A stretch of 64,000 nt of DNA. It comes from Devosia ureilytica. Lineage in GTDB: Bacteria > Pseudomonadota > Alphaproteobacteria > Rhizobiales > Devosiaceae. A program made the translations under genes and the position numbers. Position 1 is the stretch's first letter. The number at the start of each line of letters is the position of its first letter. The notes below the pieces were generated by a model that made no database searches, was not told the origin of the DNA, and saw only the letters and a program-made list of their open reading frames with translations. Location of the stretch: contig NZ_JAMZCU010000006.1 of NCBI RefSeq assembly GCF_024273195.1, positions 186,001 to 250,000 of the forward strand. The letters run 5' to 3'. Below are positions 35,069 to 55,843 of this stretch, one piece after another.

Positions 35069-35071
35069 GGG

Positions 35072-38221: not shown

Positions 38222-38290
38222 ATGGTCTCCAGCCGCTTCCCATTTGGGGAGCGGAGACGGTCAATTATCGATTGCGGTTCAAGTACGACC

Positions 38291-39220: not shown

Positions 39221-39257
39221 GTTTTCGCCTTTCAGTTTGAAGTTTCTCGGGACGCGA

Positions 39258-39650
39258 TCACGCGTCTTCGGAGACCGGGGCGTAGGAGCCGTCCTCGCGG
39301 TGAACTTCCTGACCGGTGACCGGCGGATTGAAGCAGCACGCCATCACCATCTCGCTCTTGGCGGTCAGGCGATGCTTGTCGTTGAGGTTGAGGGCATACA
39401 TGACGCCCGGGCGGATTTGGTGCACCACGCCGGTATCCAACTCCTCGATGGAGCCTTCACCGGAGACGCAATAGACGCTCTCGAAGTGGTGCTTGTAGTT
39501 GAACACATGGCTGGTGCCCGCATGGATGCGGGTGATGTGAAAGCTGAAGCCCATCTCGTCGCCGGCCAACAGCAGTCGGGTGCTGTCCCAGCCGTTTGAA
39601 TGGACGAGGCGGTCAGTCATTCGTGCGGAATCGAGATCTCTGACGATCAT
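39258..39650 (-). CDS. ectC: Ectoine synthase
   Basis: A 130-residue cupin enzyme closing the ring of N-gamma-acetyl-diaminobutyrate to ectoine. It shows [16 protein letters not shown] at the start and the family core [26 protein letters not shown] with [15 protein letters not shown], where Glu, Tyr and His metal-binding positions are expected. The length matches the family. It lies 13 bp after ectB. Confidence 0.97.
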
Positions 39651-39663
39651 GGATGCGGTCTCC

Positions 39664-40953
39664 CTATTCGGCAGCAGCGCGGTGGGACCCCAGGATAGCG
39701 TTAAAGGCGCTTTCCATGATGTCGATGCCGGCGGTCAGCTGTTCGAGGGAAATTGTGAGCGGGCACAACACCTTGACGACTTCGTCAAAGCTGCCTGACG
39801 TTTCGATGATGAGGCCCTTGGCAAAGCAGGCCTTGCAGATCGCAGAGGCATTTTCGCCTGAGCCTGCATCGATCCCCACCATCATGCCGCGCCCCTTGGT
39901 GGTCAGGCCATGCTCGTCGGCAATGGCGCCAAGGCGTTCGCCTAGATAGCGGGCCTTCTCGTTCACCGCAGTGATGAACTGATCATCGGACCAGAACTTT
40001 TCCAGCGCCGCAGCGGCTGTGGCGAAGGCGTGGTTATTGCCACGGAAGGTGCCGTTATGCTCGGCCGGCTTCCAGATGTCGTGCTGGGGCTTGATTAAGG
40101 TCAGGGCGAGGGGCAGGCCCATTCCCGACAGCGACTTTGCCATGGTGATGATGTCTGGCGACAGCCCCATGTCGTCGAACGAGAAGAAGCCGCCAGTGCG
40201 ACCGCAGCCGGCCTGGATGTCATCGACGATGAACAGGGCGCCGTGCTTTTTGGCGATGGCCTGGATCTGACGCAGCCACTCGGGGGAGGCGGCGTTAAGC
40301 CCGCCTTCGCCCTGCACGGTTTCCACGATAATCGCTGCAGGTGCGTCCATGCCGCTGGACGGGTCCGACAGTTCGCGGTCCAGCAAGTCGGCGGTGTTGA
40401 TATCGGGGCCGTGGTAGCGGTCATAGGCTGCGCGGTCCACGCCAGAGAGCGGCATTGCTGCGCCGCCGCGATGCTTGCCGTTGCCGGTTGCCGCCAGAGC
40501 GCCCATGGTCACGCCGTGAAAGCCATTGGTGAAGGAAATGATATTAGTGCGGCCGGTGACCTTGCGGGCCAATTTCAAGGCCGCTTCAACAGCATTTGCG
40601 CCGGTGGGGCCGGTGAACTGCAGCTTGTGCTGCATATTGCGCGGACGCAGGATCAAGCGCTCAAAGGTCGCGAGGAAATTTTCCTTGGCGTCGGTGTACA
40701 TGTCCAGGCCATGGGCGATGCCATCGTTCGAGATATATTCGATCAGCGCGGCCTTGAGGTCCGGATCGTTGTGGCCATAGTTCAGGGTCGAGCATCCGGC
40801 GAGAAAATCGGTGTAGCCCTTGCCAGACGTGTCATAGATGGTCGCGCCCAGCGCCCGGTCGAACATCTTGGGAAAGCTGCGGGAATAGGAACGGACGCGG
40901 CTTTCAACGCGCTCGAAGGTATTGATAGGCGTGATGGATGCGGTCGTGGCCAT
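39664..40953 (-). CDS. ectB: Diaminobutyrate-2-oxoglutarate transaminase
   Basis: A 429-residue class III PLP aminotransferase that makes L-2,4-diaminobutyrate from aspartate semialdehyde. The start ([29 protein letters not shown]) is diagnostic for EctB. The Schiff-base Lys is in [18 protein letters not shown], and [21 protein letters not shown] is the cofactor-binding region. It follows ectA after a 50-bp gap. Confidence 0.97.
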
Positions 40954-41003
40954 AAGGGCGTCTCCTGGACTTAGGCAGTAGGGATAAGGTTGAAGCAGCG
41001 AGG

Positions 41004-41570
41004 TCAGGCGCTGCTGAGCGCCGCAATTTGCTTTAAATTGAATGGGCCAATGCTGACCCCATATTCACCGTCGTGGTGACCGTCGAAGTGGTCGTCTTTG
41101 TCGAACATTTCGACCTGACGCATCTGGGCGTCGAGCCTGCGCGCAATGGCGGTGAACAGGCCCCAGCTCGACTCATTGTCGTGCGTGATCGTGCATTGCA
41201 GCGTCGTCACGGCGCGGCAGACGGGGCGGGACAGAACATCGCCGATCAGGCGGCGACCGAGGCCCTGGCTGCGCGCGACGTCGCTGACACAGACCTGCCA
41301 GACGAACAGCGTGTCTGGCTGCTCGGGCAGGATATGCCCCGAAACCCAGCCGACCACCGCACCATCATGTTCGGCTATGGCGCAGGTCGAAGCAAAATGC
41401 GTGCACTGCAACAGGTTCGCATAGATCGAATTGTCGTCGAGCGATTCTGTCGACTTGATCAGCGCCCACACTCTGACGCCATCCGTACTTTCAGGCGCAC
41501 GAATAGTCGCCTTGGGTGCCTCCCGACCAAGGACGCCAGCATCGAACAGCACTGAATTGCCATAAATCAT
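41004..41570 (-). CDS. ectA: L-2,4-diaminobutyrate acetyltransferase
   Basis: A 188-residue GNAT enzyme that acetylates diaminobutyrate. The signature region RAPESTDGVRVWALIKSTESLDDNSIYANLLQCTHF is diagnostic, and VWQVCVSDVARSQGLGRRLIGDVL is the acetyl-CoA binding loop. It is first in the ect run. It reads away from ectR across a 285-bp AT-rich control region. Confidence 0.96.
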   Translation of the reverse strand: MIYGNSVLFDAGVLGREAPKATIRAPESTDGVRVWALIKSTESLDDNSIYANLLQCTHFASTCAIAEHDGAVVGWVSGHILPEQPDTLFVWQVCVSDVARSQGLGRRLIGDVLSRPVCRAVTTLQCTITHDNESSWGLFTAIARRLDAQMRQVEMFDKDDHFDGHHDGEYGVSIGPFNLKQIAALSSA

Positions 41571-41638
41571 GGTGACGAAGGTTAGCCATATCGAACTAAA
41601 TTACAACCCACAATCAAGCCAAAATTTGACTCCGCAGC

Positions 41639-41653
41639 ACGATGAGTCATCGT
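41639..41653. promoter_or_regulatory. 15-bp palindrome in the ectA/ectR control region
   Basis: ACGATGAGTCATCGT is a perfect palindrome around a central G, 69 bp upstream of ectA and 203 bp upstream of ectR. It is a candidate site for the MarR-type EctR or another dimeric regulator. Confidence 0.5.
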
Positions 41654-41716
41654 CGAATCGATTAAAAGCGCTTTTTATTCAGCGACTTGATGCCAATGTG
41701 CGCGAGCCGATATAGT

Positions 41717-41729
41717 TTTGAAATTCAAA
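41717..41729. promoter_or_regulatory. 13-bp AT-rich palindrome in the ectA/ectR control region
   Basis: TTTGAAATTCAAA is a perfect dyad around one A, roughly midway between the divergent ectA and ectR genes. AT-rich dyads of this kind are typical for MarR-family operators; assignment to EctR is inference. Confidence 0.45.
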
Positions 41730-41855
41730 GAAATGGTCTGGAGCTTCAGAAATAGCTTCATCGAAACTAATTATGTGCTAATATGACGGCAACGTAATAT
41801 CTTGGGTTCGGTTGTCGGGGGCGATACAGTGGCTTGATATTCACCGGGTGGCGCA

Positions 41856-42398
41856 GTGGAAGATCGGACCAAACTTGCCTTGACGGCCATGCGCAAGATT
41901 CTGCGCGCGACCGAGCGGAACTCCAGGCAGCTCCTGCGCGAAACAGGGCTGACACCGTCCCAATTGATTTTCATGCAGCTTCTCGACGGCGAGAACGAGC
42001 AAACGGCGGGCTATGTTGCCGGCCGCATGGGAATTACCCAAGCCACCACCACGGCCCTACTGCAAAAGCTTGAAAGCCTGGGCATGATTCAGCGTCGGAG
42101 GGGCGAAAAAGATAGACGCCAGGTCCTGCTGTCGTTGACTGAGCCAGGACGGAGGGTGCTGGAGATTGCGCCCGAGGGTGCCCACGCCCAGTTCCACCAA
42201 CACTTCCTGGCGTTGCAGGACTGGGAGCAGTCAATGCTCATTGCGGCGCTGGAACGTATTGCTGCCATGCTGGGCGATGACGATCCGGGGGTTGCTGCCG
42301 TGCTTGACGCGTCCGAACTCCTGTCGGAGCGATCAGCCGTACCCGCAAGGGTAGCAACCAGCAATTCTCCAGAATCGAACCGGCGAGATCAAACCTAG
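41856..42398 (+). CDS. ectR: MarR-family regulator of ectoine genes (EctR)
   Basis: A 180-residue MarR-type regulator. The winged helix is visible in TAGYVAGRMGITQATTTALLQKLESLGMIQRRRGEKDRRQVLLSLTEPGRRVLE (about 50-105), with the conserved DRRQVLLSLTEPG wing. Its divergent position next to ectA is the usual place for EctR, which in methylotrophs and halophiles represses ect genes. The start is GTG 41856; an internal ATG at 41889 is possible. The C-terminal 30 residues are not conserved in type and run into the remnant zone. Confidence 0.86.
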   Translation: MEDRTKLALTAMRKILRATERNSRQLLRETGLTPSQLIFMQLLDGENEQTAGYVAGRMGITQATTTALLQKLESLGMIQRRRGEKDRRQVLLSLTEPGRRVLEIAPEGAHAQFHQHFLALQDWEQSMLIAALERIAAMLGDDDPGVAAVLDASELLSERSAVPARVATSNSPESNRRDQT

Positions 42399-42570
42399 GG
42401 TGCCGTCACCGACAAGGCAGCGAACGGGTTATGCTTGACGACGCCGTTGGCCGCAACTCCATTCGCAATGCGGGTTTCCGCTTCATCATGACTGGGGGGC
42501 GTCGACGCTCCGCCTCCTCTATATAGATTGCACACGAACGATATTCTGGCAGAGCTCCGCCCAAAGCCTT

Positions 42571-42989
42571 TCAGTGGCGGTCGCACCCGAGGGGTCTGGC
42601 CCATGATGGCCAGCGGTTCGCCACCGTGCTGGAAATGACGATGTGATGCCTGGTGTCAACGGCAGCCTGGACGTTGTAGCCGACGACACTGCGATCGTCG
42701 CGCCCAGTTGCCATGGCTCGGGCATCCGGATCGGTGAGCGAGATCTGCCCATCGGGGTGGCATCCAACGTTCGGCCAATCTCCAGGTTCCCGAGGCGCCC
42801 ACGCCGCGCCTCCAACTGCTCGGCCAGGTGATTGATCCGCGGTGTGGCCGGGCGGGTCTTCGGGATTTTGGCGGAAACCTCCGTCTTTTCCTGCTGGATA
42901 TGGGGCCTTTGGTTCGGTCGGCATTTTTCCGGCAGAGGCATCATCTCCTCACAGCTTGTCGCCTTGTCAGCCGCACTGGCCGTCATCAA
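42571..42989 (-). pseudogene. IS1182-type transposase remnant
   Basis: The minus strand reads ISLTDPDARAMATGRDDRSVVGYNVQAAVDTRHHIVIS, the conserved middle of IS1182-family (DDE) transposases, with VVGYNVQ and AVDT intact. A shifted frame upstream gives ATPRINHLAEQLEARRGRLG, the helix that normally precedes it. No complete frame, ends or terminal repeats are visible, so it is a frameshifted internal fragment. It marks an old insertion between the ectoine locus and the plasmid-like block. Confidence 0.75.
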
Positions 42990-43071: not shown

Positions 43072-43693
43072 GGCAAGGGCTCGGCAGCCTATCCCACTAT
43101 TTAGAGTTCTTTCGCTTTGGCTGCCCGCCGCATGGCGACATGGGGGGCTGGGCCGTATCCTGATCCGGCTGCCCTGCGCTGCCAGCATCAGCGGCGTGAC
43201 CTTTCTCAGCAACACTCCGGGGATGCTGCGCCCCTAAGAGAACAAATGCAGTGGTCGGCGTGCATCGAAAAGCACGCCGTTGCATCGTTATCAACGCAAA
43301 CCTGATGCCAGTTCTTCGGTCCTTCGGCCTAAAAATGCCGGTCTGCAACCGACACACATCTCTCCGTCTCATCGTCGTAAGCGGACCGTCCGGTCTGGGG
43401 AGATCGAGACGACCAAGTGGATGACAGAAATGGGGCGCAGTTCGGGCCGTCCGCTACTCGAAAGTCTCCTCGCCTACAGCATTTCTGGATCCGTTTCCGA
43501 ACAATGCTAGCACATTGCAACCGTTTAAACGCACAGCATCGGGCCAGGCTATCAGCCTTTGTTCTCCGCTATCGTTCCTCTAACGAGCATAATCTTGTCG
43601 GCAAACTCGCCCGCAGAGGCGTCAAGTGCGTGATCCTGGGGATCCACAATCCGGGTCGCGGAACCGCGGCACTACCGCCAGTCACCATGTCAC
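43072..43693. other. Non-coding remnant zone
   Basis: About 620 bp with only short overlapping frames that do not resemble proteins. It probably consists of further mobile-element debris between the recombinase fragment and the TKWCT-motif gene. No hairpin terminator, tRNA or clear repeat was seen. Confidence 0.5.
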
Positions 43694-44407
43694 ATGCCCA
43701 CGAATCTCAACCGCGCCGATTTTGTACTTATCGACCATCTGCAGGCGACCTGGGTCCGCGCGGGCCGAGAAAACCTGGACCCATATCTTTCCGTCGAGCG
43801 TGAAAAACGTGTCTTTCCTCTGATCTGCCTGTTCGACCCCACGGATGGTTTCTACCACGGTTGGCTTTCTCACTGGCGCCGCCGGCTCTGGGACCAGAGA
43901 GGGTTTCGGACGAGCGTGGACCTCATGCAGCTGCAAGACGTCCGGAGAGCGCTTGCTCGATTCCATGCCCTCAAAGACGAGCTGCCGGTCGAGCAGCGGG
44001 ATATCGGTCAGTACCGAACAGTGGATGACCTGAGGTCAATCATTCCGACCCGGATTGCAGAAACCCAGAGGCGGAAAGAACGCGAAAGCCTCAAAGTAGA
44101 AGCCTATCGCCAATCCGAAATTCTCTACCGCGATGGGAGATGGATGGTAGTGCGGCTGAAGGGTTTTGCCGCAGCCCGATTCTGGGGCTTAGGGACAAAG
44201 TGGTGCACGACCAGTGCCGAACACATCTACCTCAACTACGCCGGCAAAGGTGACCTTCTGGTTTTCCTGACACCGCACGGAAAATACCAACTCGCCCCCG
44301 CCAGCCGTATGTTCCGGGATGAGCGCGACGACCCCATCGACGTGAGGATTTTCCGTGGCCCGCCGCCGGCATTCATGAGTTTGGTGAGCAGCTATCTGGG
44401 CCAATGA
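43694..44407 (+). CDS. Hypothetical protein with a GLGTKWCTTS motif
   Basis: A 237-residue protein without a recognised family. The C-terminal third reads MVVRLKGFAAARFWGLGTKWCTTSAEHIYLNYAGKGDLLVFLTPHGKYQLAP. The GTKWCT core followed by a Tyr and a K-Y-Q strand recurs in proteins of phages and mobile elements (PcfJ-like and others), where the role is not settled. The N-terminal half is charged and partly helical (LQDVRRALARFHALKDELP). It follows the remnant zone and precedes the plasmid-like block in the same direction. The start is ATG 43694. Confidence 0.62.
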   Translation: MPTNLNRADFVLIDHLQATWVRAGRENLDPYLSVEREKRVFPLICLFDPTDGFYHGWLSHWRRRLWDQRGFRTSVDLMQLQDVRRALARFHALKDELPVEQRDIGQYRTVDDLRSIIPTRIAETQRRKERESLKVEAYRQSEILYRDGRWMVVRLKGFAAARFWGLGTKWCTTSAEHIYLNYAGKGDLLVFLTPHGKYQLAPASRMFRDERDDPIDVRIFRGPPPAFMSLVSSYLGQ

Positions 44408-44754
44408 CGGCACGAGACACTGCCCAATGGCAGGGACCTAAACGTATGGAGAGGCAGGCTCGGCGCTGTGCGGTGCCGATCATTCTGGACGGGCGCAAAG
44501 CGGAAAAAGCAGGTCCTTGCGCGCCTTAATCTATTCTCCACCTCATGCGTGCGGCGGCACGGCACCAAAAATTAACCACGATTCACGCTGACGTAGAATG
44601 GGGATTGCCAAGTCAAAACGGATCCCGCAGCCTTTTCAGATGATGCCAATTCCGGCGTCGAAACGGTTGAAACACCCCCTGCAAGGGGCGGCCGACGGAA
44701 GGTCTGCAAACCCGCCGTCGACCTGACCGACATCAAACTGTTAGGAGCAGTTCA
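44408..44754. other. Control region before the plasmid-like operon
   Basis: About 350 bp without a gene. It contains CCCCCTGCAAGGGGCGG (a GC-rich short dyad) and ends with a TAGGAGCAG ribosome site for the next gene. It is likely to hold the promoter of the 44755-48995 run; no clear -35/-10 pair stood out. Confidence 0.45.
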
Positions 44755-46050
44755 ATGAAGGCTAATGCCACTTCTAGCGGCCGCATGGCTGCATGCAACC
44801 CCCATTCCCCAACATCTGATCTGCCCGCATCGGGCGGTACGGATCTGACGCATCCCGGGCTGATCAGCCATCCGATGCTGACGCCGAGTGTGCAGGTGCA
44901 GATCCTGTCCGCGGTCGATGCAACCGGTTCGGCGAGTATCAGCGACATCATCGCCGAGCTTCCCAGTCATGACGATCCGGTCAGCGCCGTGTTTGCTCTC
45001 GTGGCTGCCGGTGCTTTGGTCGTGCTGTCGGAAGGCATCATCGATGCCCACACCATTTTGGCCCGGCGTCTGCCGTCCGACCAATCCGGTGACCTCGTCC
45101 CGGTTGACGCGGCTCCTTCACCAGTCCCTTCGCGCGAATGCCTGGAAGACAAGCTCGCCACTGCGCAGTGGACCGACGTTGTGGCCGACACTGACGCTGA
45201 GTTGCCGCCCGAATTGGTTCAGGTCCCAGCTTCATCACTGCAGCCCCGGATCCTTCGTGGATCCGGCAGGCATCGCGCTGCCTTTAAATATGCCCCCGGT
45301 CTGCAGCAGCCTGGCGTCTATATCCAGCTCTGCGGCGACCAAGCCTATATCGGTTATGGCAGCGATGTCGGCTTCCGGATCGCCATGGGCAAACAGATGG
45401 ACGCTCTGCCTGACACCATCCTCGTCATCACTGATGCCAGTAATGGCCTGACAGAGGAAGACGGGCTCGCCCTCGAGCGGATCTTGTGGGGTTACGTGTC
45501 GGACGATGCCGACTTCACTGTGGTCAACAAGCAGCCCGACGGCGCCCCGATCAGCGTCGACCGCTATGACCAGCTGGTTCAGTTCACCGCACAGGTGGTT
45601 CTGGCCCTGCGTCGGGCCGGCATCATGTTCCTCGAGGGTTCAGTGCGTCAGCGCTTGGCCGGTCCACGCGCGGAACCCGATCGCCTCGGAGCGGTCCGTC
45701 CCTTCGAGTCCATTCCCGAAGGCCGGGTGATGGAACTCAACTATCGCGGTCTGACGGCACTGGCCGCAGAGCGTGATGACGGGACCTGGTTGCTGCTGCG
45801 CGGCAGCGACGTGCGTATCGACACGGTAAAATCCGCATCTGCCAATGCGTCCTTCCAAAGGGCGGCATGGCTGCATTCGGGATTGTTGGAGCTGGCCGAG
45901 GATGGCAGCTGCTATGTCCTCATGCGCGACATGGTCTTTTCTTCGGGCAGTGCCGTCGGCCATTTCGTCTCTGGCAGCAAAGGCTTCGGCCTGGCCTGCT
46001 GGCAGCCCATAGACCCGGACGACTGTGAGGTCGACGCGCTCGCTCTTTAG
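44755..46050 (+). CDS. GIY-YIG nuclease-like and DUF4357-domain protein
   Basis: A 431-residue protein. Residues about 185-290 resemble a GIY-YIG endonuclease: QQPGVYIQLCGDQAYIGYGSDVGFRI gives GVY and YIG ten residues apart with the following Arg, and GLTEEDGLALERILWGYV gives the expected Glu. Residues about 350-431 (LMRDMVFSSGSAVGHFVSGSKGFGLACWQPI) match DUF4357, which often follows GIY-YIG domains. The N-terminal 130 residues are unassigned, with a possible winged-helix segment near 46-80. An AGGAG site precedes the ATG. It overlaps nothing but runs directly into the AAA/M41 gene 85 bp later. Confidence 0.72.
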   Translation: MKANATSSGRMAACNPHSPTSDLPASGGTDLTHPGLISHPMLTPSVQVQILSAVDATGSASISDIIAELPSHDDPVSAVFALVAAGALVVLSEGIIDAHTILARRLPSDQSGDLVPVDAAPSPVPSRECLEDKLATAQWTDVVADTDAELPPELVQVPASSLQPRILRGSGRHRAAFKYAPGLQQPGVYIQLCGDQAYIGYGSDVGFRIAMGKQMDALPDTILVITDASNGLTEEDGLALERILWGYVSDDADFTVVNKQPDGAPISVDRYDQLVQFTAQVVLALRRAGIMFLEGSVRQRLAGPRAEPDRLGAVRPFESIPEGRVMELNYRGLTALAAERDDGTWLLLRGSDVRIDTVKSASANASFQRAAWLHSGLLELAEDGSCYVLMRDMVFSSGSAVGHFVSGSKGFGLACWQPIDPDDCEVDALAL

Positions 46051-46135
46051 CGCGCGTCCGGCATTCCGCTTCCCACACCCTTTCCTCATCTTCTGTTCAA
46101 GGCGCGGCTTCGGCCGCCGCCGATGGAGAACACGC

Positions 46136-48097
46136 ATGTCTCTTTCCACTCTCAACCGTAAGTCCCGCAAGGACACCAATGACAAGACCAGTGCGGGATC
46201 CGCTTCCGACACAGCACCGCGCGAGCTCGAGCGTCCCGGTGAGGCTTTGGGCCGGCTGCTGCTCGACAGGGCCCTTACCCCCAAGCTGCGCAGGCTGTTC
46301 AAGTCTGCGGCGAAGCTCATCATCATCAAGACCAAGGATGAGGCCACCGCCCGGCTGCTCGACACATACATCGCAGCCGAGGATCATAACGTGGTCGTCG
46401 AAGCCTATTGCGAGCCGCCGCGCCCGGGCAAATCGCAGGACCTTAATGGCCGGCACGAGTTGGCAAAACTGCAATGGGGGCGCACGGTCATCCTCATCTC
46501 CCCCGATCCGGAGCGCATCCTGGTCCCTGAGGCGCTGGTTGGTGCGGATGTCATCATCACCGTAGCACCGCCGAACCTGGCCGTGGTCCGGCAGACAATC
46601 CAGGCGGTCACCGGTCAATCTGTACGGGGGCTGCATCGTGCCGATATCGAAGGCCTTGGCGTCGAAAATTTTGTCACCGCCATCCGGCCGCTGCTTTCGG
46701 CGCGAGAATGCGTGTTCAATCTGCGCCGGGCTTCCAAAACTTTGCGCAAGGATGTCGGCGCAGGGACGACAGTTACCCTTTGGGACCTGGCAATGACGCG
46801 CTCGGTGTCCGCCTGGGCACTCGAAACGCTGGAATTAATGGGAAAGGTGGAAGAGGGAAAGCTCAAGTCGGCGAGCCTCATCCATGCCTGCCTCGAAGGA
46901 CCGCCCGGCACGGGCAAGACCACACTGGCCGAAGCTCTGGCCGGTTCGGCTGGCTGGACGTTTGTGCGGACCTCCGTCGGCGAATGGTTTGCAAGTTCCG
47001 GCGGACACCTGGGTGATGTCATTCGCGCAGCTCGCAGGTTTTTCGACGAGATCGCGCTGGCCACCACCCCGGTCGTCGGTCTGATCGACGAAATCGATAG
47101 TCTGCCCAACCGCGCTGCAATGGATGAAAAGGACAGCCAGTGGTGGACGCCCGTCGTCACTTTCGTTCTCACGGAAATCGACAAGCTTAGGCATGCGGGA
47201 AAACCCATCTTGCTGCTCGGCGCCACCAATCATTTTGAGAAGCTGGATGGGGCCCTTATCCGTCCCGGCCGGCTGGAGCGGCGGGTGCCGGTCCTCTTGC
47301 CCGATGCCATGGACCGGCAGCGGCTGTTTGCTTGTTTCCTTGGGGACAGGCTGCCCGTATCCGCAGTGGTCCAACTGGCGCGGCTGGCAATTGGTGCAAG
47401 TCCGGCGCGCATCAAGAGCTGGTGCGAAACGGCCCTGGCGCAGGCCCAAAAAGCGGGGCGCCCTCTGGTCCTGCGCGACGTACTGGACCTGGTCGCGCCG
47501 CCCGATGGCCGTTCACCGCACAAGGACCGCGCCGTAGCCCTGCACGAAGCCGGTCACGCTGTGGTTGCGATTGAATTGGGGCTGCCGGTCCACGAGGTGT
47601 CTATCCTGGGTATTGGCGAGATCGGGGGTTATGTGAAATCGGGTGATACCGACACTAGCCTTCTCACCCGGGAACAGATTGAGCGCGTCGGAACCATGAT
47701 GCTGGGCGGTCGGGCTGCAGATGAGGCTTTGGGCTCTGGAGGCCATGCCGGGGCCGCGGCAGACTTAGAAAGCGTCAATTCCCTGTTGCGCGCAGCCATT
47801 TTGGACTTCGGTCTCTATGGTTCACTACGGACAGCGAAGAACACGGACCATCGGGACTTTAAGAATGGTGTTCCTCTTGCCATCGTCATCGACATCGAAC
47901 TCAACCGCTGCCTCAAGCGGGCCACGGACATCGTCATCCGGCGGCAGACTGACATTGCCCGCCTTGTCGACGCCCTGCTCGACGAACGAGTCATTACCGG
48001 TGAGCGGCTTGACGAAATCCTCGATGCCGAAAGCGTCCAAGCCGATCTGCCTTCTGACCTGGACCAGACCTTGGCTCTGGCGGAGGCGTCATCATGA
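46136..48097 (+). CDS. Soluble FtsH-like AAA+ ATPase with M41 zinc-protease domain
   Basis: A 653-residue protein combining an AAA+ module and an M41 peptidase, as in FtsH, but with a long unrelated N-terminus and no membrane helix. Walker A is EGPPGTGKTTLAEAL (about 254), Walker B VVGLIDEIDS (about 313), and the SRH motif reads LDGALIRPGRLERRV with the Arg finger. The protease has HEAGHAVVAIELG (His-Glu zinc site near 469) and a later Asp in AGAAADLESVNSLL. The first 230 residues are unassigned. ATG 46136 with a GGAG site is chosen over an upstream start that overlaps the previous gene. It is likely a cytoplasmic degrading machine of a mobile element. Confidence 0.85.
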   Translation: MSLSTLNRKSRKDTNDKTSAGSASDTAPRELERPGEALGRLLLDRALTPKLRRLFKSAAKLIIIKTKDEATARLLDTYIAAEDHNVVVEAYCEPPRPGKSQDLNGRHELAKLQWGRTVILISPDPERILVPEALVGADVIITVAPPNLAVVRQTIQAVTGQSVRGLHRADIEGLGVENFVTAIRPLLSARECVFNLRRASKTLRKDVGAGTTVTLWDLAMTRSVSAWALETLELMGKVEEGKLKSASLIHACLEGPPGTGKTTLAEALAGSAGWTFVRTSVGEWFASSGGHLGDVIRAARRFFDEIALATTPVVGLIDEIDSLPNRAAMDEKDSQWWTPVVTFVLTEIDKLRHAGKPILLLGATNHFEKLDGALIRPGRLERRVPVLLPDAMDRQRLFACFLGDRLPVSAVVQLARLAIGASPARIKSWCETALAQAQKAGRPLVLRDVLDLVAPPDGRSPHKDRAVALHEAGHAVVAIELGLPVHEVSILGIGEIGGYVKSGDTDTSLLTREQIERVGTMMLGGRAADEALGSGGHAGAAADLESVNSLLRAAILDFGLYGSLRTAKNTDHRDFKNGVPLAIVIDIELNRCLKRATDIVIRRQTDIARLVDALLDERVITGERLDEILDAESVQADLPSDLDQTLALAEASS

Positions 48098-48699
48098 GCA
48101 TCGCCGCAGAAACCAAATCTTTGATCGAGGCCTGCCTCGCCGGGGATCCCGCTCTTGCGTCTCTGGCCGTCGTGGGGACCGCTCCTGAGACCCTGTCTGC
48201 GCATATCGCGCCAGGGCGTCCGGTCAAAGCCATCGGCGGATCGGGCTTTTCCCCTCACCCGCCGTTCAATCGCGAAACCCTCGTGGAACTGATTGTGCGC
48301 ATGCAGCGCCTGCGTTGGAGCCGGTCGACACCATTTAATCCGAAGGGCTGGCCGCCGGAAGATCGAGACCTGCGGGCGCTTCACAGCAAGCACGACAAGG
48401 CGGTTGTGGGCTTTGAATGCGGTCCTGGCTGGACCGATCTTTTGGACGCCGCCTTCTCCTGGCTGAACGAGATCGCACCTACCAGAGACTGGGCGCCAAG
48501 CCAGATCAAAGAGAAGTTCGGGACACTGAGGTTCTATTGGCATGGCGACCTGCCGGACCTTGGCGATGAAATCATCTCGGCGGCCGAACATATCTCCGGC
48601 CACCTCTGCGAAATGTGCGGCACCCACGGGCACCTGCGTAAGGATATCGGTTGGTGGAGTGTGCGCTGCCGTGAACACGCCAAGGAGCCCTGGTCATGA
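48094..48699 (+). CDS. Hypothetical protein with C-terminal Cys-rich domain
   Basis: A 201-residue protein whose ATG overlaps the AAA/M41 stop (ATGA, 48094-48097). The C-terminal half matches a widespread unnamed domain of phage and plasmid proteins: WTDLLDAAFSWLNE, WAPSQIKEKFGTLRFYWHGDLPD, then AEHISGHLCEMCGTHGHLR and GWWSVRCREHA, where CxxC and CxxH could bind a metal. The N-terminal 90 residues are unassigned. It overlaps the next gene by ATGA too. Confidence 0.72.
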   Translation: MSIAAETKSLIEACLAGDPALASLAVVGTAPETLSAHIAPGRPVKAIGGSGFSPHPPFNRETLVELIVRMQRLRWSRSTPFNPKGWPPEDRDLRALHSKHDKAVVGFECGPGWTDLLDAAFSWLNEIAPTRDWAPSQIKEKFGTLRFYWHGDLPDLGDEIISAAEHISGHLCEMCGTHGHLRKDIGWWSVRCREHAKEPWS

Positions 48700-48995
48700 G
48701 CCGGGTGTCTGCCAAAAAGCTGAAGAGAGCGTTGAAGGATTGGGAGAGGCTGGCCAGCGGGCACTCGCCCAGTCCAGACGATCTGTCCAATGCGCCGCTG
48801 CTGACGGACTGGGAGCCACGGTGGACCGCGACGGGTGTCATGTACTTAATCGGGCAGGTTCGGGGGCATCCAAAGCTTCAAGACGGGCCGTGCAGCACGT
48901 CCATCGTGCTGGCAGCCGATGTCCAGCAGGGCTGGGCCCGTACCTTGAGCCGATACTACAGGCTCGGCCCGCAGCATGGAGAGACCCTCCATTAA
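48696..48995 (+). CDS. DUF6634-like small protein
   Basis: A 99-residue protein overlapping the preceding stop (48696-48699, ATGA). The C-terminal part GQVRGHPKLQDGPCSTSIVL and QQGWARTLSRYYRLG matches the DUF6634 pattern seen in rhizobial plasmids and islands, of unknown function. It is the last member of the overlapping run that begins with the AAA/M41 gene. Confidence 0.7.
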   Translation: MSRVSAKKLKRALKDWERLASGHSPSPDDLSNAPLLTDWEPRWTATGVMYLIGQVRGHPKLQDGPCSTSIVLAADVQQGWARTLSRYYRLGPQHGETLH

Positions 48996-49046
48996 CTCAG
49001 GCCGGTCCGCGCCAATCGCGGACCGGCGACCCGACCTCACTCAATA

Positions 49047-49076
49047 TTGCAGTACGGTTCTAAACCGTACTATACT
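49047..49076 (+). promoter_or_regulatory. Promoter with internal palindrome for the kfrA-like gene
   Basis: TTGCAG (49047-49052) and TATACT (49071-49076), 18 bp apart, form a good sigma-70-like promoter. Between and overlapping them lies a perfect inverted repeat: AGTACGGTT (49051-49059), CTA, then AACCGTACT (49063-49071). This is the expected arrangement for KfrA, which represses its own promoter through a palindromic operator. Confidence 0.75.
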
Positions 49077-49101
49077 AAACCAAAACTTACAGGAGCTCAC
49101 C

Positions 49102-49677
49102 ATGAGCGCTGAAATCGCAAGCCTTGAGAAAGTCCGCGCCGCGGTGGCGCAGCTTCACCTCAACAATCAACGTGCCACCGCCGACGCCGTCATTGCCGCA
49201 ATCGGCGGCGGATCCAAGCCGACAGTCTTGAGGCATCTGAAGACTTTACGCGAAGAGCTGCCGCAGGTGACGGAGGACCTTCCGGCTGGCGTCCTCGATC
49301 TGGTCCGGCCAATCGTCGCGCAGATCTTTGCCGAGGGCAGCAAGGCTGAAGCGGCGCGAACCCGCGATCAGATTGAACGACTGCATCGGATGCTTGGCGA
49401 CCTGGAGGCCGAATTGGAAACTCTAGGATCGGTCAATGCGGCGTTGGACGACCAGGTTATCGACCTCGGCAAGGAGCTTGAAAGATCTAGCAAAGCTCTT
49501 TCGAGCGCCGAGGCGCTGATCATGTCCAAGAATCGCAAGATCGAGAAACTGGCAGCACAACTCAGCGAAAAGGAAATGGCCGCCCAGCGCCAACTCGCCG
49601 CGGCCATGAAAGGGTTCGATGAGAGGCTTACAACTCTTGCCAAGCAGTTGGCTACTGCCAGTGAGGACACGAAATAG
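49102..49677 (+). CDS. KfrA-like DNA-binding coiled-coil protein
   Basis: A 191-residue protein with the KfrA N-terminal DNA-binding domain (SLEKVRAAVAQLHLNNQRATADAVIAAIGGGSKPTVLRHLKTLREEL, about residues 6-53) followed by a long coiled coil (about 85-185; IERLHRMLGDLEAELETLG and later KNRKIEKLAAQLSEKEMAAQ). KfrA proteins of plasmids bind their own promoter and help in plasmid maintenance. ATG 49102 is supported by an AGGAG site (49091-49095). Its operator palindrome is embedded in the promoter just upstream. Confidence 0.83.
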   Translation: MSAEIASLEKVRAAVAQLHLNNQRATADAVIAAIGGGSKPTVLRHLKTLREELPQVTEDLPAGVLDLVRPIVAQIFAEGSKAEAARTRDQIERLHRMLGDLEAELETLGSVNAALDDQVIDLGKELERSSKALSSAEALIMSKNRKIEKLAAQLSEKEMAAQRQLAAAMKGFDERLTTLAKQLATASEDTK

Positions 49678-49872
49678 CGCAATGGGGCTGCGTTCAAACC
49701 CCCGAGCTTGTTGGGCGACACCTCTGGCTACCAGTGACAAGAACCCTGTTTCGTGCTTGGCACAAGTAGAACGGACCGATTGCCACCCGCCCATTCCGGC
49801 CATTCGACGGGTGTCCGACACCGCCCAGAAGGGTCATGTCATTCGCTCCTGACGAACGGGACAGACGTCGAG

Positions 49873-49907: not shown

Positions 49908-50021
49908 CATGATGATCGAAAATCGCATGGTCGTAGTAGGTGCGCGCATGGGCACGGCAGCATAGCTGCCAGGCAAAGGCACCCATGCGCGGAGAAATCA
50001 GCCCCTTTAAGGGGCTTTTTT
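49908..50021 (+). ncRNA. Candidate small RNA or leader with terminator
   Basis: The about 114-nt transcript would fold into a nested structure. GCGCATGGG (49944-49952) pairs with CCCATGCGC (49982-49990) and encloses GGCAGC-ATA-GCTGCC (49956-49970). It ends in a terminator at 50000-50021. An 18-codon frame (49909-49965, starting ATGATGATC) begins at the predicted transcript start, so a leader peptide is also possible. The efflux gene starts two bases after the terminator T-run, so the element could attenuate it. No known RNA family was recognised. Confidence 0.42.
50000..50021 (+). terminator. Intrinsic terminator before the efflux gene
   Basis: AGCCCCTT pairs with AAGGGGCT around one T, and the T-run extends to 50021. 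It ends the short RNA element or attenuates the downstream MFS gene, whose ATG is at 50023. Confidence 0.8.
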
Positions 50022-50022
50022 A

Positions 50023-51252
50023 ATGCCTCGTTTCCAACGCAAGCAATTGGCTTTGATCATGTCAGGTTCATCAGCTTCTCCTCGCCTATTTACGTTAGTC
50101 TTTCTGTCGGCACTTGCTATCCTGCCGATCAACTTCTTTCTCCCATCTCTTCCCCAAATGGCCGCCGAATTTGGCGTCGATTATGGACTGATGGGGCTTT
50201 CGCTGGCGGCCTATGCCATTGTGTCAGCGTGCCTGCAGCTCGTTTTGGGCCCGCTCTCGGACCGTTTTGGTCGCCGGCCCGTAATCCTCGGGGCGCTGAC
50301 GATATTTATCGCTGCGACAATCGGGTGCGCCCTGGCGCCGGATGCCTGGACCTTTCTGGCCTGCCGGATGGTGCAAGCCGTGATCGCACCAACCTACGGG
50401 GTGGCGCTCGCCGTGATCCGTGACACGACCACTCGAGAACAGTCGGCTAGCCGGTTCGGCTATCTGGCCATGGCGTGGGCCGTTGCACCCATGCTCGGCC
50501 CGACGGCAGGCGGGCTGCTCGATCAGCTATTTGGCTGGAGGGCCAGCTTCTGCATTCTGGCGCTTTTTGGAATCGCAGTCCTGGCATTGTGTTGGACCGA
50601 CCTGCGCGAAACGAACACCTCGCGATCCATGACAATGCTGGAGCAGTATAAGGCCTATACCGAACTACTCGGCTCCAGGCGCTTCCTGGCCTATTGCCTA
50701 TGTATGGCCTTCTCGGTGGGCGCCTTCTACGCCTTCCTGGCGGGCGCCCCGCTGGCCGCTTCAGCCTTTGATCTATCGCCGGCAGTTCTGGGTCTCTACA
50801 TGGGCTCGATCACAGCCGGCTTCATGCTTGGCAGTTTTCTTGCCGCGCGGCTCGCCGGCAAACTCCCGCAAGCCAACCTGCTGATTGCAGGAAGGATTGT
50901 GGCTTGCGCGGGGCTCTTGTTCGGCATCGTCCTGTACTTTGCCGGCGTCGAACATGTGGCGGCATTGTTCGGGCCATGCTTTTTCGTCGGACTGTCGAAC
51001 GGACTTACGCAGCCAAGCGCCAATGCCGCGGCGATGTCGGTTCGCGCAACCCAGATGGGAAGCGCCGCCGGTCTCGCCGGCGCGATCACCGTCGCCGGTG
51101 CTTCCATCATGGCAGCGATCGCAGGAGCTGTTTTGACGGAAGAGAATGCCCGGTCTGGCCTGCTCATGGTGATGCTGGCCTCAGCGATTGCCGCCCTGGG
51201 TGCAGCCCTGTTTGCGCGCCATCTCGAGACTGATACGCCCCAAACGACATAA
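50023..51252 (+). CDS. Bcr/CflA-type MFS multidrug efflux transporter
   Basis: A 409-residue MFS exporter of the Bcr/CflA drug-resistance group with about 12 helices. The start LPINFFLPSLPQMAAEFGVDYGLMGLSLAAYAI is typical, motif A is GPLSDRFGRRPVILGAL, and motif C-like glycines follow in MLGPTAGGLLDQLFGWR. It would expel drugs with proton antiport. An internal ATG at 50059 (SGSSASPRL) may be the real start; the ATG at 50023 has AAGGGG nine bases upstream inside the terminator stem, which would couple its translation to that structure. Confidence 0.86.
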   Translation: MPRFQRKQLALIMSGSSASPRLFTLVFLSALAILPINFFLPSLPQMAAEFGVDYGLMGLSLAAYAIVSACLQLVLGPLSDRFGRRPVILGALTIFIAATIGCALAPDAWTFLACRMVQAVIAPTYGVALAVIRDTTTREQSASRFGYLAMAWAVAPMLGPTAGGLLDQLFGWRASFCILALFGIAVLALCWTDLRETNTSRSMTMLEQYKAYTELLGSRRFLAYCLCMAFSVGAFYAFLAGAPLAASAFDLSPAVLGLYMGSITAGFMLGSFLAARLAGKLPQANLLIAGRIVACAGLLFGIVLYFAGVEHVAALFGPCFFVGLSNGLTQPSANAAAMSVRATQMGSAAGLAGAITVAGASIMAAIAGAVLTEENARSGLLMVMLASAIAALGAALFARHLETDTPQTT

Positions 51253-51711: not shown

Positions 51712-52389
51712 TCAATGGGAGACCGCCTCCACCGACGCAGGGGCCTCGGGAAGCTGTTCGCCTTGCAGTTCAGGTGGGACCTTCCAACCCGGATCAACGC
51801 CCGTCATGTCTGGCAATTCGTGTGCGATGCCCTTGTGACAATCGATGCAGGTTGCTTCCCCGGTCAGCAGGTACTGGCTGTGGATCTCTGCGGCGCGGGG
51901 CGCCTGCCGGGACAAGTCCATCGCCACGGCCGAATGACAATTGCGGCATTCAAGACTGTCATTTGCCTTCAGCCGAGCCCATTCGTGCTGGGCGAGCTCG
52001 AGGCGATGCTCAAGGAATTTCTGGCGCGTATCGATGGAGCCGAAGATGTGGCCCCAGACCTCCTTCGACGCCTGCATCTTGCGTGCGATCTTGTCGGTCC
52101 AATCGTGTGGCACGTGGCAATCCGGACAGGTGGCCCGAACGCCCGAGCGGTTTGCGAAATGCACGGTGCGCGTCAATTCCTCGAAGACGTTGGCTTCCAT
52201 CTCGTGACAGGAAATGCAGAACTCCTCGCGATTGGTGAATTCCATCGCCGTGTTGAAGCCGCCCCAGAACAGCACGCCCCCCATGAACCCGCCGAGAGTC
52301 AGCACGCCCAGGCCCATGGTGCCGGCAGGAGTGATGAGTATCTTCCAGGCCCAACGGACGACCGATTTTATCCAACCGAACAGTTTCAT
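51712..52389 (-). CDS. napC: Tetrahaem quinol dehydrogenase NapC
   Basis: A 225-residue NapC/NirT protein with one N-terminal membrane helix ([22 protein letters not shown], about 25-45) and four CxxCH haem sites: CISCH, CPDCH, CRNCH and CIDCH. It passes electrons from the membrane quinol pool to NapAB in the periplasm. The ATG overlaps the napB stop (52386-52389, ATGA). It is the last gene of the napEDABC order. Confidence 0.95.
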
Positions 52390-52865
52390 TCCGAGCCCAC
52401 AGGTTTGGCGCCGAGATCGATCATGTCCACGAAGTCGTTCTCCACCAGGGGGGCGACGTCGGCCTGCGGCACATGGCAGGCCGTGCAGAAGTATCGGCGG
52501 GGCGACACGTCAGCCAGCATCTGTCCCTCGCGGGTCATGAAATGGGTGATGCTAATCATGGGAGCTCCGGACCCTTGCGTGAACTCCCTATTGTGGCACG
52601 ACATGCAGCGGTTGGTGTTCACCGACAATTGGTAGCCCTGGATCGAATGCGGGATCACTGGGGGCTGTTCGGGGTAGGCCCGCATCTGCCGCACATCATC
52701 TGTAACCCAACGCGGAATCGGATCGGCCTCGACATCGGACATCGGATCCGTTGGGCCACGCAACTCGGGCGCAAACTGCGCCAGCGCGCTGCCGGCGAGG
52801 ATACCGACTGCGAGAATGACGCTCATGAGGACCGTCAGGCGACGGGAATGATCTTTACCGCGCAT
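52386..52865 (-). CDS. napB: Periplasmic nitrate reductase dihaem subunit NapB
   Basis: A 159-residue dihaem cytochrome with a signal peptide ([18 protein letters not shown], cut near residue 29) and two CxxCH sites (CMSCH and CTACH). It carries electrons from NapC to NapA. Its full-length start (52865) overlaps the napA end by 31 bp; an alternative ATG at 52826 would begin directly at the hydrophobic core. Confidence 0.93.
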
Positions 52866-55339
52866 TTCTTGAAGTCCGTCTGCTTGGAAATCGGATCGGT
52901 GGCGTCCAGGGTGACCTTGTTGATCAACCTGCTGGCATCGAACCAGGGTACGAAGATCACGCCGCTGGGCATGCGGTTGCGCCCTTGGGTTTCAATGCGA
53001 CAACGAATCTCGCCTCGCCTCGACACGATGCGCACTTCCATTCCCTGGTTGAATCCTCTTTCGCGGGCATCAGCGGCGTTCATGAAGCAAACCGCTCCGG
53101 GGAAGGCCTTGTACAGTTCTGGAACACGCATGGTCATCGACCCGGAGTGCCAGTGCTCCAGCACCCGGCCAGTCACCAGCCAGAGATCGTATTCGTCGTC
53201 AGGCGACTCGGCGGGCGGTTCGTAGGGGACAGCGAGAATGACGGCGCGCTTGTCCGCCTGACCGTAGAATTCGACTTCAGAACCGGGTGTCACGTAGGGG
53301 TCGTAGCCCTCGCGGAAGCGCCAAAGAGTTTCCTCGCCGTCGACGACGGGCCAGCGAAGACCACGAACCTCGTGATAGGTGTCGTAGGGCGCGAGATCAT
53401 GTCCGTGTCCACGACCGAACTCGGCATACTCCTCGAAGAGGCCCTTCTGCGGATAGAAGCCGAATGCCGCGGCCTCCCAATTGTCGTACTCGGAGCTGAC
53501 CTCCGACTCGGAGAACTTGTCGACCTTGCCATTGCGGTAGAGGACGTCGAACAGGGTCTTGCCTCTATAATCCGGGTTTGCGTCCAGCACGTCAGCGGGC
53601 CACACCTCATCTGTGGTGAAGTACTTGGAGAACTCCATCAGCTGCCAGAGATCGGACCTGGCATCGCCTGGCGCATCGACCAGTTGGTGCCAGACGTGGG
53701 TGCGGCGCTCTGCGTTCCCATACGCGCCTTCTTTCTCGACCCACATGGCTGCTGGCAGGACGATGTCCGCGGCGCTTGCAGTGATGGTCGGATAGGCGTC
53801 CGAGACGACGATCAGATTGTCCGGGTTCCGATAGCCCGGATAGGTTTCATTGCTGTTGTTCGGCGCCGCCTGAAGGTTGTTGTTGACCTGTATCCAATAG
53901 AAATTCAGGTCGCCGTCCTTGAGACGCCGGTCCTGCTCAACGGCATGATAGCCAGGCTCGGCCGGCAAGAGCCCAGCGGGCAGTCGCCATATCTCCTCGG
54001 CATGATGGCGGTGCTCATCGTTGGTTACCACCATGTCCGCTGGTAGGCGATGGGCAAACGTGCCGACCTCGCGCGCCGTCCCGCAGGCCGATGGCTGACC
54101 CGTCAGCGAGAAGGGACTATTGCCCGGTTCGGAGATTTTGCCGGTCAGGAGGTGCAGATTGTAGACCATCTGGTTGGCCCAGACGCCACGAACATGCTGG
54201 TTGAATCCCATGGTCCAAAGCGACATGACTTTCGTGGAGGGATCTGCGTAGAGCTCGGCCAGTTCCTCGAGGAACCCATGCTCCACCCCGCTGATCTCCG
54301 AAGCGCGCTCCAACGTGTATTCCGAGACAAGCTCACTGAAGGCCTCGAAATCGATCGGGTCCATCTGGCCGGCCGTCGCGGCGCCAGTGGCCGCTTGTTC
54401 CAGAGGATGCTCGGGACGCAATCCATAGCCGATGTCGGTCATGCCGCGCATGAACTTGGTATGCTTGTTGACGAAATCCTCGTTGACTCGACCAGTCGTG
54501 ATGATGTGGTTGGCGATGTAGTTCAGGATCGCCAGGTCCGTTCCTGGCTTGAAGATGATCGGGACGTCGGCCAGATCCATGCTTCGATGGGTGAAAGTCG
54601 AAAGCACCGCGCAGCGTACATGGGGATTGCCGAGGCGTCGATCGGCAAGACGCGTCCAGAGGATCGGATGCATCTCGGCCATGTTCGAGCCCCAGAGAAC
54701 GAAGGCGTCGGCATGCTCGAAGTCGTCGTAGCATCCCATCGGCTCGTCGATGCCAAAAGTGCGCATGAAAGCGGTGGCGGCCGAGGCCATGCAGTGTCGT
54801 GCGTTGGGGTCGAGATTGTTGGAGCGGAAGCCGGCGCGCATCAGCTTGGTCGCGGCATAGCCTTCGAAGATCGTCCACTGTCCGGAGCCGAACATGCCAA
54901 GTGCCTTCGGACCCTTCTCACGCAGCACCTGTTTGACCTTGTCGGACATCACCGTGAAGGCCTCGTCCCATGTGACGGGCTCCAGCTCGCCATTCTTGTC
55001 GTAAACGCCTCCGGTCCGACGCATCAAAGGGGTCGTGAGGCGGTCCTCGCCGTACATGATCTTGGAGAGAAAGTAGCCTTTCACGCAGTTCAGGCCACGG
55101 TTCACCTCGGCCTGCATGTCGCCGTGGGTAGCGACCACATGTCCGTCCTTGACCCCGACCATCACGCCACAGCCCGTGCCGCAGAAACGGCAAGGTGCCT
55201 TCGACCACTTTATCTCGAGCGTCTCGACGCCCCCGGCGACCGGTTGCGCGGCCGCGGGCAAGGCTATGCCGGCAGCTGCCGCCGCGACCGCAGCGGCTTG
55301 AGCCTTCAGGACGTCACGTCGGTTGAGCTCCAGTGTCAT
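52835..55339 (-). CDS. napA: Periplasmic nitrate reductase catalytic subunit NapA
   Basis: An 834-residue molybdoenzyme that reduces nitrate to nitrite. A Tat signal is present ([28 protein letters not shown]). The [4Fe-4S] cysteines lie in [13 protein letters not shown] and a later GLNCVKGYF, and the bis-MGD ligand Cys is within [39 protein letters not shown] is typical. It is matured with NapD, whose gene overlaps its start by 26 bp. ATG 55339 is used, since a longer frame would reach into napD. Confidence 0.97.
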
Positions 55340-55652
55340 GACGCATCTCCTCCTCAACGACGGCTTGTTCGAACACCATGCTGGCGGCAAGTACTCCGCC
55401 CATCAGGTTTATCGTGGTCAGCTTCTCGCCCAGTTCGCCAGGACCGCTTCCCTCGAGCACAAGGACGATCTTGCCCTCGCCACTTGCGACCACTTCCACA
55501 CCCGGCATTTCCGCCAGGCGTTGGGAAAGGTCGGGAACTAGCGACGGAAGCGCGCGTACGATCGCGCTGGAGACATGATGCCGGGATGTCTTGTTCGCGC
55601 CGATCCTGCCCAGCATGACGTCCCGGCGGGTCAATGCGTTGTCATTGGCCAT
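55314..55652 (-). CDS. napD: NapA signal-peptide chaperone NapD
   Basis: A 112-residue protein with a NapD ferredoxin-like chaperone domain ([44 protein letters not shown]). NapD binds the NapA Tat peptide and delays export until cofactor loading. The N-terminal [17 protein letters not shown] is an extension also seen in other alphaproteobacterial NapD proteins. ATG 55652 avoids an upstream frame that overlaps napE. It overlaps napA by 26 bp. Confidence 0.9.
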
Positions 55653-55654
55653 GA

Positions 55655-55843
55655 TCAATGCCCCCCCGTAGGTGGACCGGGTGGGCCGAAGATCATCTGC
55701 CAGATCCAAACAACCAGGCCATAGCTGCCGACGAAGACGACAGCAACGATCGGCCAGATGCCGAAGGCCAGCACCAGGAATGCGATGATTTCTGAGCGCC
55801 GCCTTGACGGCGTCGTGACGCCTGCTTCAGGATGCTCGGTCAT
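55655..55843 (-). CDS. napE: Small membrane protein NapE
   Basis: A 62-residue protein with one membrane helix (SEIIAFLVLAFGIWPIVAVVFVGSYGLVVWIWQMIFG). The RRRSEIIAFLxLAxxIWPI start is the NapE signature. Its role is unclear. It is the first gene of the napEDABC operon and sits three bases before napD. Confidence 0.92.
   Translation of the reverse strand: MTEHPEAGVTTPSRRRSEIIAFLVLAFGIWPIVAVVFVGSYGLVVWIWQMIFGPPGPPTGGH

Follow-up and report, generated by a model that had tools for sequence, protein, structure and literature searches.

A covarying leader ahead of linked GIY-YIG/DUF4357 nuclease and AAA+/M41 protease genes in a candidate mobile-element module of Devosia and other Hyphomicrobiales

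We analysed a 64-kb stretch (hereafter, the window) of the 3.8-Mb genome of the soil bacterium Devosia ureilytica, taken from contig NZ_JAMZCU010000006.1, in which an initial annotation made from the letters alone had singled out a block of five genes. These encode a likely GIY-YIG/DUF4357 nuclease, a predicted AAA+/M41 metalloprotease, a CxxC protein, a DUF6634 protein and a KfrA-like protein, and the block is headed by a structured leader ending at the nuclease start, which is the new element here. The genes for nuclease and protease stand side by side in many genomes, their active-site residues are conserved, their context is mobile, and the covarying leader is common to other DNA-processing operons. 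With moderate confidence we read the block as a module of integrative mobile elements of the Hyphomicrobiales, which would comprise the leader RNA, the nuclease, the protease and exchangeable accessory genes, here those for the CxxC, DUF6634 and KfrA-like proteins and elsewhere a tyrosine recombinase gene. Most likely it is a DNA-processing module, for mobility or maintenance, under a shared RNA switch.

Relatives of the two main proteins were called in 136 Devosiaceae genomes, at E≤1e-45 for M41 and E≤1e-10 for the nuclease. M41 relatives were found in 56 genomes (92 places) and GIY relatives in 36 (46 merged places), and in 39 of the 46 GIY loci an M41 gene follows directly downstream on the same strand; three of the other seven are at contig ends and four are fragments or broken genes. 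Thus, the condition under which the block was to be dismissed, that homologues are never neighbours, is overturned for the nuclease-protease pair. The five genes as a set fared differently: the pair is widespread, but among the loci read the full set is present only in the window, D. riboflavina and D. equisanguinis, and among 43 loci the KfrA gene accompanies the pair in 4, the CxxC gene in 9 and the DUF6634 gene in 14. The mosaic surroundings of the block (at 42519-42989 a stretch that reads as a degraded transposase, and flanking genes of ectoine type on one side and of nap type on the other) would suit chance debris, unrelated genes joined by rearrangement; the pair and the larger unit described below are, however, conserved in many genomes, and the linkage refutes this explanation, to which we assign a practically negligible chance.

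The assignment of the first protein to GIY-YIG/DUF4357 proteins is supported indirectly, by profile-profile comparison and by motif, while the window protein itself does not reach the Pfam GIY-YIG cut-off. Pfam returned no GIY-YIG match on it and one weak match (E 0.02) among 33 relatives, and DUF4357 matched at 1.3e-4, under its curated cut-off; the GIY-YIG gathering score was reached by two more distant homologues among ten scanned. Comparison of the family's profile with nine relatives gave 99.9% probability over 256 aligned columns covering both the GIY-YIG and the DUF4357 parts, and two of the nine pass the Pfam GIY-YIG cut-off. The nine were picked by the window-nuclease profile or as plasmid M41 neighbours, so that the likeness comes partly by selection, which does not apply to the Pfam GIY-YIG matches. 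Invariant across 33 aligned relatives are Y189 (of GVY), Y198 and G200 (of YIG), R208 and E241, a pattern that we take to be the GIY-YIG active site with its catalytic Arg and Glu. The N-terminal part resembles a winged helix. A PDB profile search with the nuclease found no credible relative (best E 0.5), AlphaFold2 models had predicted local distance difference test values of 31 (nuclease) and 36 with three sequences each, too low to be of use, and two loci with both M41 and leader (L172 and L173) gave no Pfam family match. The window nuclease shares both domains, over the 256 columns, with PDC-S14 and stand-alone GIY-YIG/DUF4357 proteins, and differs from them in its extra N-terminal region, its M41 partner and the preceding leader. 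The occurrence of DUF4357 in GIY-YIG-domain proteins is also reported in one publication (PMC4619093).

The protease matched Pfam AAA (3.2e-23) and Peptidase_M41 (8.1e-17), and in 42 sequences K261, E319, N365, R376, R379, H470, E471, H474 and D543 are invariant. It has in common with FtsH the AAA and M41 domains in one chain, the HExxH motif, the Asp zinc ligand, the Walker motifs and the arginine fingers, which presumably play their usual roles in an M41 protease. It differs from FtsH in its N-terminal region of ~230 residues, which has no visible anchor (no dedicated predictor was used), and in its position beside nucleases on mobile elements. The description of the protein as FtsH-like without a membrane helix stands for the N terminus, while one internal stretch is borderline: the strongest 19-residue Kyte-Doolittle window scores 1.76 (from residue 133) as compared to 2.29 in the host FtsH, and windows above 1.6 were present in 27 of 86 M41 relatives. 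The NCBIfam FtsH model scored 137.3 bits (7.4e-40), not reaching its cut-off of 600 bits. In a PDB profile search the best solved relative was FtsH (2ce7, 8.4e-74), and the relatives, in the best 60 of 318 listed, were AAA+ proteins of the FtsH and Cdc48 types.

The leader is predicted to fold into a three-way junction (P0, H1 and H2) followed by a small hairpin, H3, that overlaps the ribosome-binding site, and the upstream DNA remains recognisable before diverged nuclease genes. We gathered 32 leader sequences, GIY pieces without the anchor pattern (12) being passed over, and built the covariance model from 29 of them, the window leader included; a near copy of another leader (L050, of L049) and two more (L224 and L226) were left out. 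As a single sequence the window leader does not fold outstandingly well (z -1.73, 8 of 200 shuffles as good), and eight single sequences ranged from -1.44 to -4.21 against shuffles. Since the single-sequence folds vary in strength, the case for the leader rests on covariation. Changes on both sides of a pair were seen in 16 of 25 pairs in the 29-sequence alignment and in 22 of 25 when 82 sequences were aligned, where the covariation score was 0.332, compared to 0.152 for shuffled alignments (none of 500 as high) and at most 0.082 for slid ones. MAFFT with RNAalifold alone gave five pairs; the 25-pair structure was derived from single-sequence folds, so the first counts lean on that structure, as does the covariation of the 82 sequences, which were fitted to the 29-sequence model. 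The loops of H1 and H2 share sequence in the GIY group, with a mean longest common string of 4.8 versus 3.3 after shuffling (0 of 500). Both loops carry CTGCAA in the window and CTTCCAA at locus L065, and several GIY loci share little; in non-GIY loci the sharing is weak (2.9 versus 2.4, also 0 of 500). A small open reading frame upstream of the nuclease gene looked conserved as well, but turned out to be an in-frame reading of the leader.

Structured RNAs that lie ahead of mobile-element genes are a known general class, and the leader resembles them as a covarying RNA before recombinase and nuclease genes. It differs from known structured RNAs in matching none of the 4227 families of Rfam 15, the best hits being at chance level (E 0.72 for the window stretch and 0.65 for another copy). 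The latter copy, at 6620-6695 of locus L322, has a sub-threshold and probably chance match to the R1162 plasmid antisense RNA (28.5 bits). We infer transcription of the window leader from conservation and a weak promoter match, two consensus matches being found in the region where 1.2 are expected.

The leader precedes 41 of 43 GIY genes, and 12 of the 14 that were not used for the model; the L060 nuclease gene, which is broken in two, is counted by one piece, and one gene scored as leader-less by the script (L051) does have a leader by eye, its called start lying upstream of it. Leaders were present in 59 of the 136 Devosiaceae genomes (E≤0.1) and at four of six operons pairing M41 with a PD-(D/E)XK-like protein (E≤0.0065), the other two being weak (0.0091 and 0.033 with a second model). 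Forty further leader places were read. Fifteen are before an operon of an AAA+ ATPase and a CoiA-like/DUF6035-type nuclease, and two before the ATPase alone. Ten are before a tyrosine or serine recombinase gene, six of these behind a ~127-aa family and one with a GIY remnant; one more is before the ~127-aa family alone and one before a GIY remnant. Among 60 comparison loci (random, other M41 types, and plasmid loci except L078) a single match fell below 0.05, a partial one at L083 (0.017). Among 297 genomes sampled across the order Hyphomicrobiales, 30 also have leaders, six of these being Devosiaceae (E≤0.01), and so do 4 of 289 genomes of the class, the D. ureilytica genome included (E≤0.001). 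Outside the Devosiaceae we read 24 of 27 leader places and 25 GIY loci, none of which were used in the models. A GIY relative lies downstream within ~1.5 kb on the same strand in 10 of these 24 places, several of them weak matches, and the leader was present at five of six such GIY loci with M41 as compared to 4 of 19 without it (one-sided Fisher test, 0.012). A leader that heads various DNA-processing genes of mobile elements suggests a shared, undescribed switch.

The folded element might instead be a DNA site, for recombination or cleavage, acting as a cruciform or single strand. Integrons have att sites that are read by structure, the element adjoins recombinase and nuclease genes, its sequence resemblance extends past the start codon, and only four cells show a one-sided change in helix 3. 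However, 59 of the 82 sequences retain a G-U pair in helix 1 and 25 have U-G at the pair next to it, the signal is strand-specific (78 bits on the plus strand of the window and 14 on the minus strand), and the element keeps a fixed distance to the called start, at -8 or -11 in 30 of the 41 leader-bearing GIY genes, with the ribosome-binding site in or by H3. We consider a DNA site unlikely. Translational control by an RNA leader would agree with a ribosome-binding site that lies within or next to a hairpin directly ahead of the start codon.

The assignment of the block to mobile elements was upheld by the linkage of the pair and by relatives on plasmids or beside recombinase, relaxase and ParA genes. 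The Bosea plasmid pB32-2 carries the GIY-M41 pair, and on Methylorubrum and Bradyrhizobium plasmids an M41 gene adjoins DUF6634 or metallophosphoesterase genes. In Devosiaceae, the pair has nearby relaxase-family genes at L039, L046 and L048 (MobA_MobL, 2e-9 for L039), ParA-family genes at these loci and at L065, and putative serine recombinase genes at L039, L046 and L065. Directly after the M41 gene there is a tyrosine recombinase gene in 15 of 91 cases, and the next four genes include a tns-family (Tn7-like) gene in 19; Pfam supported the recombinase (6e-13) and TniB/TnsC (8e-13), with TnsA and TnsB weak and under cut-off. Upstream of the 91 M41 genes lies a GIY gene in 41 cases, a gene of a ~200-aa family (F6) in 13, a PD-(D/E)XK-like gene in 6, a metallophosphoesterase gene in 3 and some other gene in 28; the PD-(D/E)XK-like label is a reading of the sequence, the one protein scanned having no Pfam match, and DUF6634 genes also adjoin M41 genes without a GIY partner. 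A quick tree of 86 of the 91 M41 proteins (five under 540 aa were left out) brought the proteins with GIY partners (38 of 39) together with those that have PD-(D/E)XK-like partners, the latter inside the GIY-partner group, so that at least two partner changes are needed; the second group comprises the F6, Tns and metallophosphoesterase types, where a strong leader was found only at L078. Blocks are also reshuffled: at L215 and L217 a segment of 2501 bp around M41 is 90% identical, while the flanks differ. Most likely, judging from these sequences, the nuclease partners of M41 were exchanged.

As a separate observation, at eight loci (among them L201, L203 and L204) a soluble M41 gene lies close upstream of Tn7-like tns-family genes, mostly with an overlapping gene of ~75 aa; these M41 genes are possibly an accessory part of Tn7-like transposons.

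The initial annotation had proposed, among other roles, an anti-invader module. In a defence system carried by mobile elements, the nuclease would cut foreign DNA and the AAA+/M41 protein would sense invasion or act as trigger by degrading an inhibitor. Other defence operons that combine a nuclease and AAA+ proteins exist, and the nearest PADLOC profiles are the candidate PDC-S14 for the nuclease (8.7e-19; this profile has no curated cut-off) and IetA for the AAA domain (5.9e-18). The patchy distribution of the GIY gene and the exchange of nucleases fit such a role too, and single plasmid loci lie near an ABC-three-component, a Lit-family or a TIR protein. Yet, no excess of known defence genes was seen: 135 neighbours of GIY-M41 loci sampled from 255 had five PADLOC protein-family matches and 135 control genes sampled from 206 had 28, several of which are models of one protein. 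Phage_integrase was found in 9 of the sampled neighbours, the operons' own recombinases included, and is not among the 25 of 172 control families listed. In addition, the leader is common to recombinase genes, and the NCBIfam FtsH model, which also covers M41, matches the protease at 7.4e-40 and the IetA-type model at 3.4e-17. The IetAS defence system consists of an AAA+ ATPase and the S8 (subtilisin-type) protease IetS; the window protease resembles it in its AAA domain and in the theme of AAA+ plus protease, and differs in that M41 is fused to AAA and the partner is a nuclease, with no S8 protease recognised by Pfam among the block proteins. We regard a defence role as possible but less likely.

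A further possibility is an addiction module, in which a nuclease toxin would be held down by the protease and the leader, and loss of the element would free it. The adjacent genes, the structured leader before the nuclease, the mobile setting and the KfrA-like maintenance gene all agree with this. Still, protease relatives stand without the nuclease at 53 of 92 places, outside the Devosiaceae 19 of 25 GIY-YIG/DUF4357 loci have no M41 within ~1.5 kb, and an AAA+ protease of more than 600 residues would, to our knowledge, be an unusual antidote. We hold an addiction module to be improbable. A role in mobility or maintenance is favoured because nucleases, AAA+ motors and recombinases, that is, DNA processing on mobile elements, are the constant theme of the leader operons, and because of the position of the ribosome-binding site.

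Several observations weigh against the reading of the block as a mobile-element module with its own leader RNA. None of the genes of the window's unit was recognised as a recombinase gene, and no empty site was found: apart from the window, the match lists of 75 Devosia genomes never show the two flanking genes side by side. A GIY partner is present at only 39 of the 92 M41 places. As to the leader, the predicted hairpins H3 and H4 are less certain: CTG..CAG pairing for H3 is seen in 53 of the 82 sequences, and many sequences are predicted to form a hairpin beyond the start codon, yet the mean z of that stretch is only -1.4. At eleven of the 40 further leader places no gene of the kinds listed lies within 1.7 kb, five of these places being at contig ends, and two (L354 and L355) look like false matches. 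Finally, the Tn7-like-type M41 loci show no convincing leader, so leader and M41 are not inseparable.

The block is part of a larger unit of six genes (Table 1). Its sequence is 86% identical to D. riboflavina over 6392 bp (43425-49804) and 85% identical to D. equisanguinis over 6214 bp (43429-49622), the two nearest named relatives, whose M41 proteins are 92% and 91% identical to that of the window. Both flanks differ in these species, so that a unit of ~6.4 kb stands among different neighbours in three species; homology of the right flank to other Devosia begins at 49861, leaving a gap of ~56 bp after the unit. The five genes, all on the plus strand, are arranged as first described, with 85 nt between the GIY and M41 genes and ATGA overlaps joining the M41, CxxC and DUF6634 genes. 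DUF6634 and KfrA_N both passed their Pfam cut-offs (KfrA_N with 53.6 bits versus 26.1), whereas 'Cys-rich' was an overstatement for the third protein, which has 5 Cys in 201 residues and does carry a CxxC near its C terminus. The leader, the sixth gene and the borders of the unit had been missed; relatives of the sixth protein adjoin the GIY-M41 pair at four loci, those of D. riboflavina and D. equisanguinis and two others (L038 and L039). An integrated plasmid is not shown in the window itself, as none of the unit's genes was recognised as coding for a replicase, relaxase or integrase; tnsA, tnsB and tnsC are likewise absent from its six proteins by Pfam.

Table 1. Features of the unit in the window (plus-strand numbering of the 64-kb stretch)
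Feature	Position	Strand	Basis
Mobile unit, ~6.4 kb, six genes	43425-49804		Identity to D. riboflavina and D. equisanguinis; flanks differ
Left copy of dispersed repeat (ATGACAGAAATGGGGCGC)	43421-43438	+	Inverted relative to right copy
Protein, 237 aa (sixth gene of unit)	43694-44407	+	No significant Pfam family
Promoter-like site, TTAACC-16-TAGAAT	44572-44599	+	Consensus match; stretch kept in D. riboflavina and D. equisanguinis
Structured leader	44661-44766	+	Covariance model, E 1.7e-19; runs through nuclease start codon
Leader helices	P0 44664-44668/44725-44729; H1 44676-44688; H2 44690-44723; H3 44736-44752	+	Predicted fold
GIY-YIG/DUF4357 nuclease, 431 aa	44755-46050	+	GIY-YIG at ~187-262, DUF4357 at 370-417
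Soluble-type AAA+/M41 metalloprotease, 653 aa	46136-48097	+	Pfam and invariant residues
CxxC protein, 201 aa	48094-48699	+	CxxC at 172 and 175; no Pfam family at E≤1
DUF6634 protein, 99 aa	48696-48995	+	Pfam DUF6634, 2.2e-15
Palindromic operator GTACGGTTCTAAACCGTAC upstream of kfrA	49052-49070	+	Shuffles and conservation
KfrA-like DNA-binding protein, 191 aa	49102-49677	+	KfrA_N, 4.3e-14
Right copy of dispersed repeat	49768-49805	-	At right end of unit; clear in D. riboflavina and D. equisanguinis

The repeats at the two ends were considered as terminal inverted repeats of a transposon, and this was rejected: this sequence is scattered through intergenic regions, and each genome has many copies of it (16 genome matches with up to three mismatches as compared to 3 for the reversed control pattern), and it therefore gives no evidence of a particular transposase. 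The match between the left and right copies in the window scores 26, where shuffles had a mean of 19 and a maximum of 39, and is not significant alone. Copies of this repeat, around ACGGCMGRAATGGGGCGC, cluster in some Devosia regions (G019:C43 and G041:C1).

Elsewhere in the window, 32308-42398 reads as an ectoine cluster and 51712-55709 as nap-type cytochrome genes, and just beyond the right border of the unit, at 49911-50031, Rfam recognises Atu_C8, a small RNA of Rhizobiales (78.7 bits). A second trace of a mobile element lies at 27052-31945, where the gene of a 630-aa integrase-like protein (Phage_integrase 1.3e-5, just under cut-off) is near tRNA-Pro and tRNA-Gln and accompanied by a ParA-type ATPase gene; the family of a small protein encoded there also follows ParA near some GIY-M41 pairs.

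Upstream of kfrA, the operator of the initial annotation was confirmed as the palindrome GTACGGTTCTAAACCGTAC, of a kind expected in none of 100 shuffles; it is identical in D. riboflavina and has one different base in D. equisanguinis. KfrA with a conserved predicted operator fits a maintenance role. The window protein shares with KfrA of plasmids such as RA3 the KfrA_N domain and the presence of a palindrome at the promoter of its gene, and differs in that it is attached to a GIY-M41 module, and this at only 4 of 43 loci. KfrA of RA3 is reported to interact with segrosome proteins (PMC7783346).

Beyond the conserved leader and gene order, we infer every step of how the module might work. The leader would hold back translation of the first gene until a signal, either a protein or a small RNA acting on the hairpin loops, opens it. 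The nuclease would then nick or cut the element or its target at a particular DNA site or structure, and the AAA+/M41 machine would pull apart and destroy a protein bound there, possibly the nuclease itself, a recombinase or a partition protein. In this way the protease would end or reset a nucleoprotein step, which would keep the reaction short and let the element be retained or moved. KfrA would repress the gene that encodes it and may also contribute to partition. Titles and abstract openings revealed no literature on the GIY-M41 pair or the leader RNA, most subscription papers being beyond reach.

More tentatively, and as a possibility we rate below the module itself, the leader operons may represent a mobile-element machine that combines an exchangeable nuclease (GIY-YIG, PD-(D/E)XK-like or CoiA-like), an AAA+ motor with or without M41, often a recombinase, and a structured RNA of one new class. 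The twin loops of this RNA would carry a locus-specific recognition sequence and would perhaps be a part of the machine beyond a switch. If the proposed reading is true, one RNA class would mark and control DNA-processing operons of integrative elements across the Hyphomicrobiales, and scans for this RNA could reveal genes for mobility or maintenance that cannot be named by protein family. The motif and the gene pair are compact and experimentally tractable. Soluble M41 proteases, freed from the membrane, would then be linked to DNA transactions of mobile elements.

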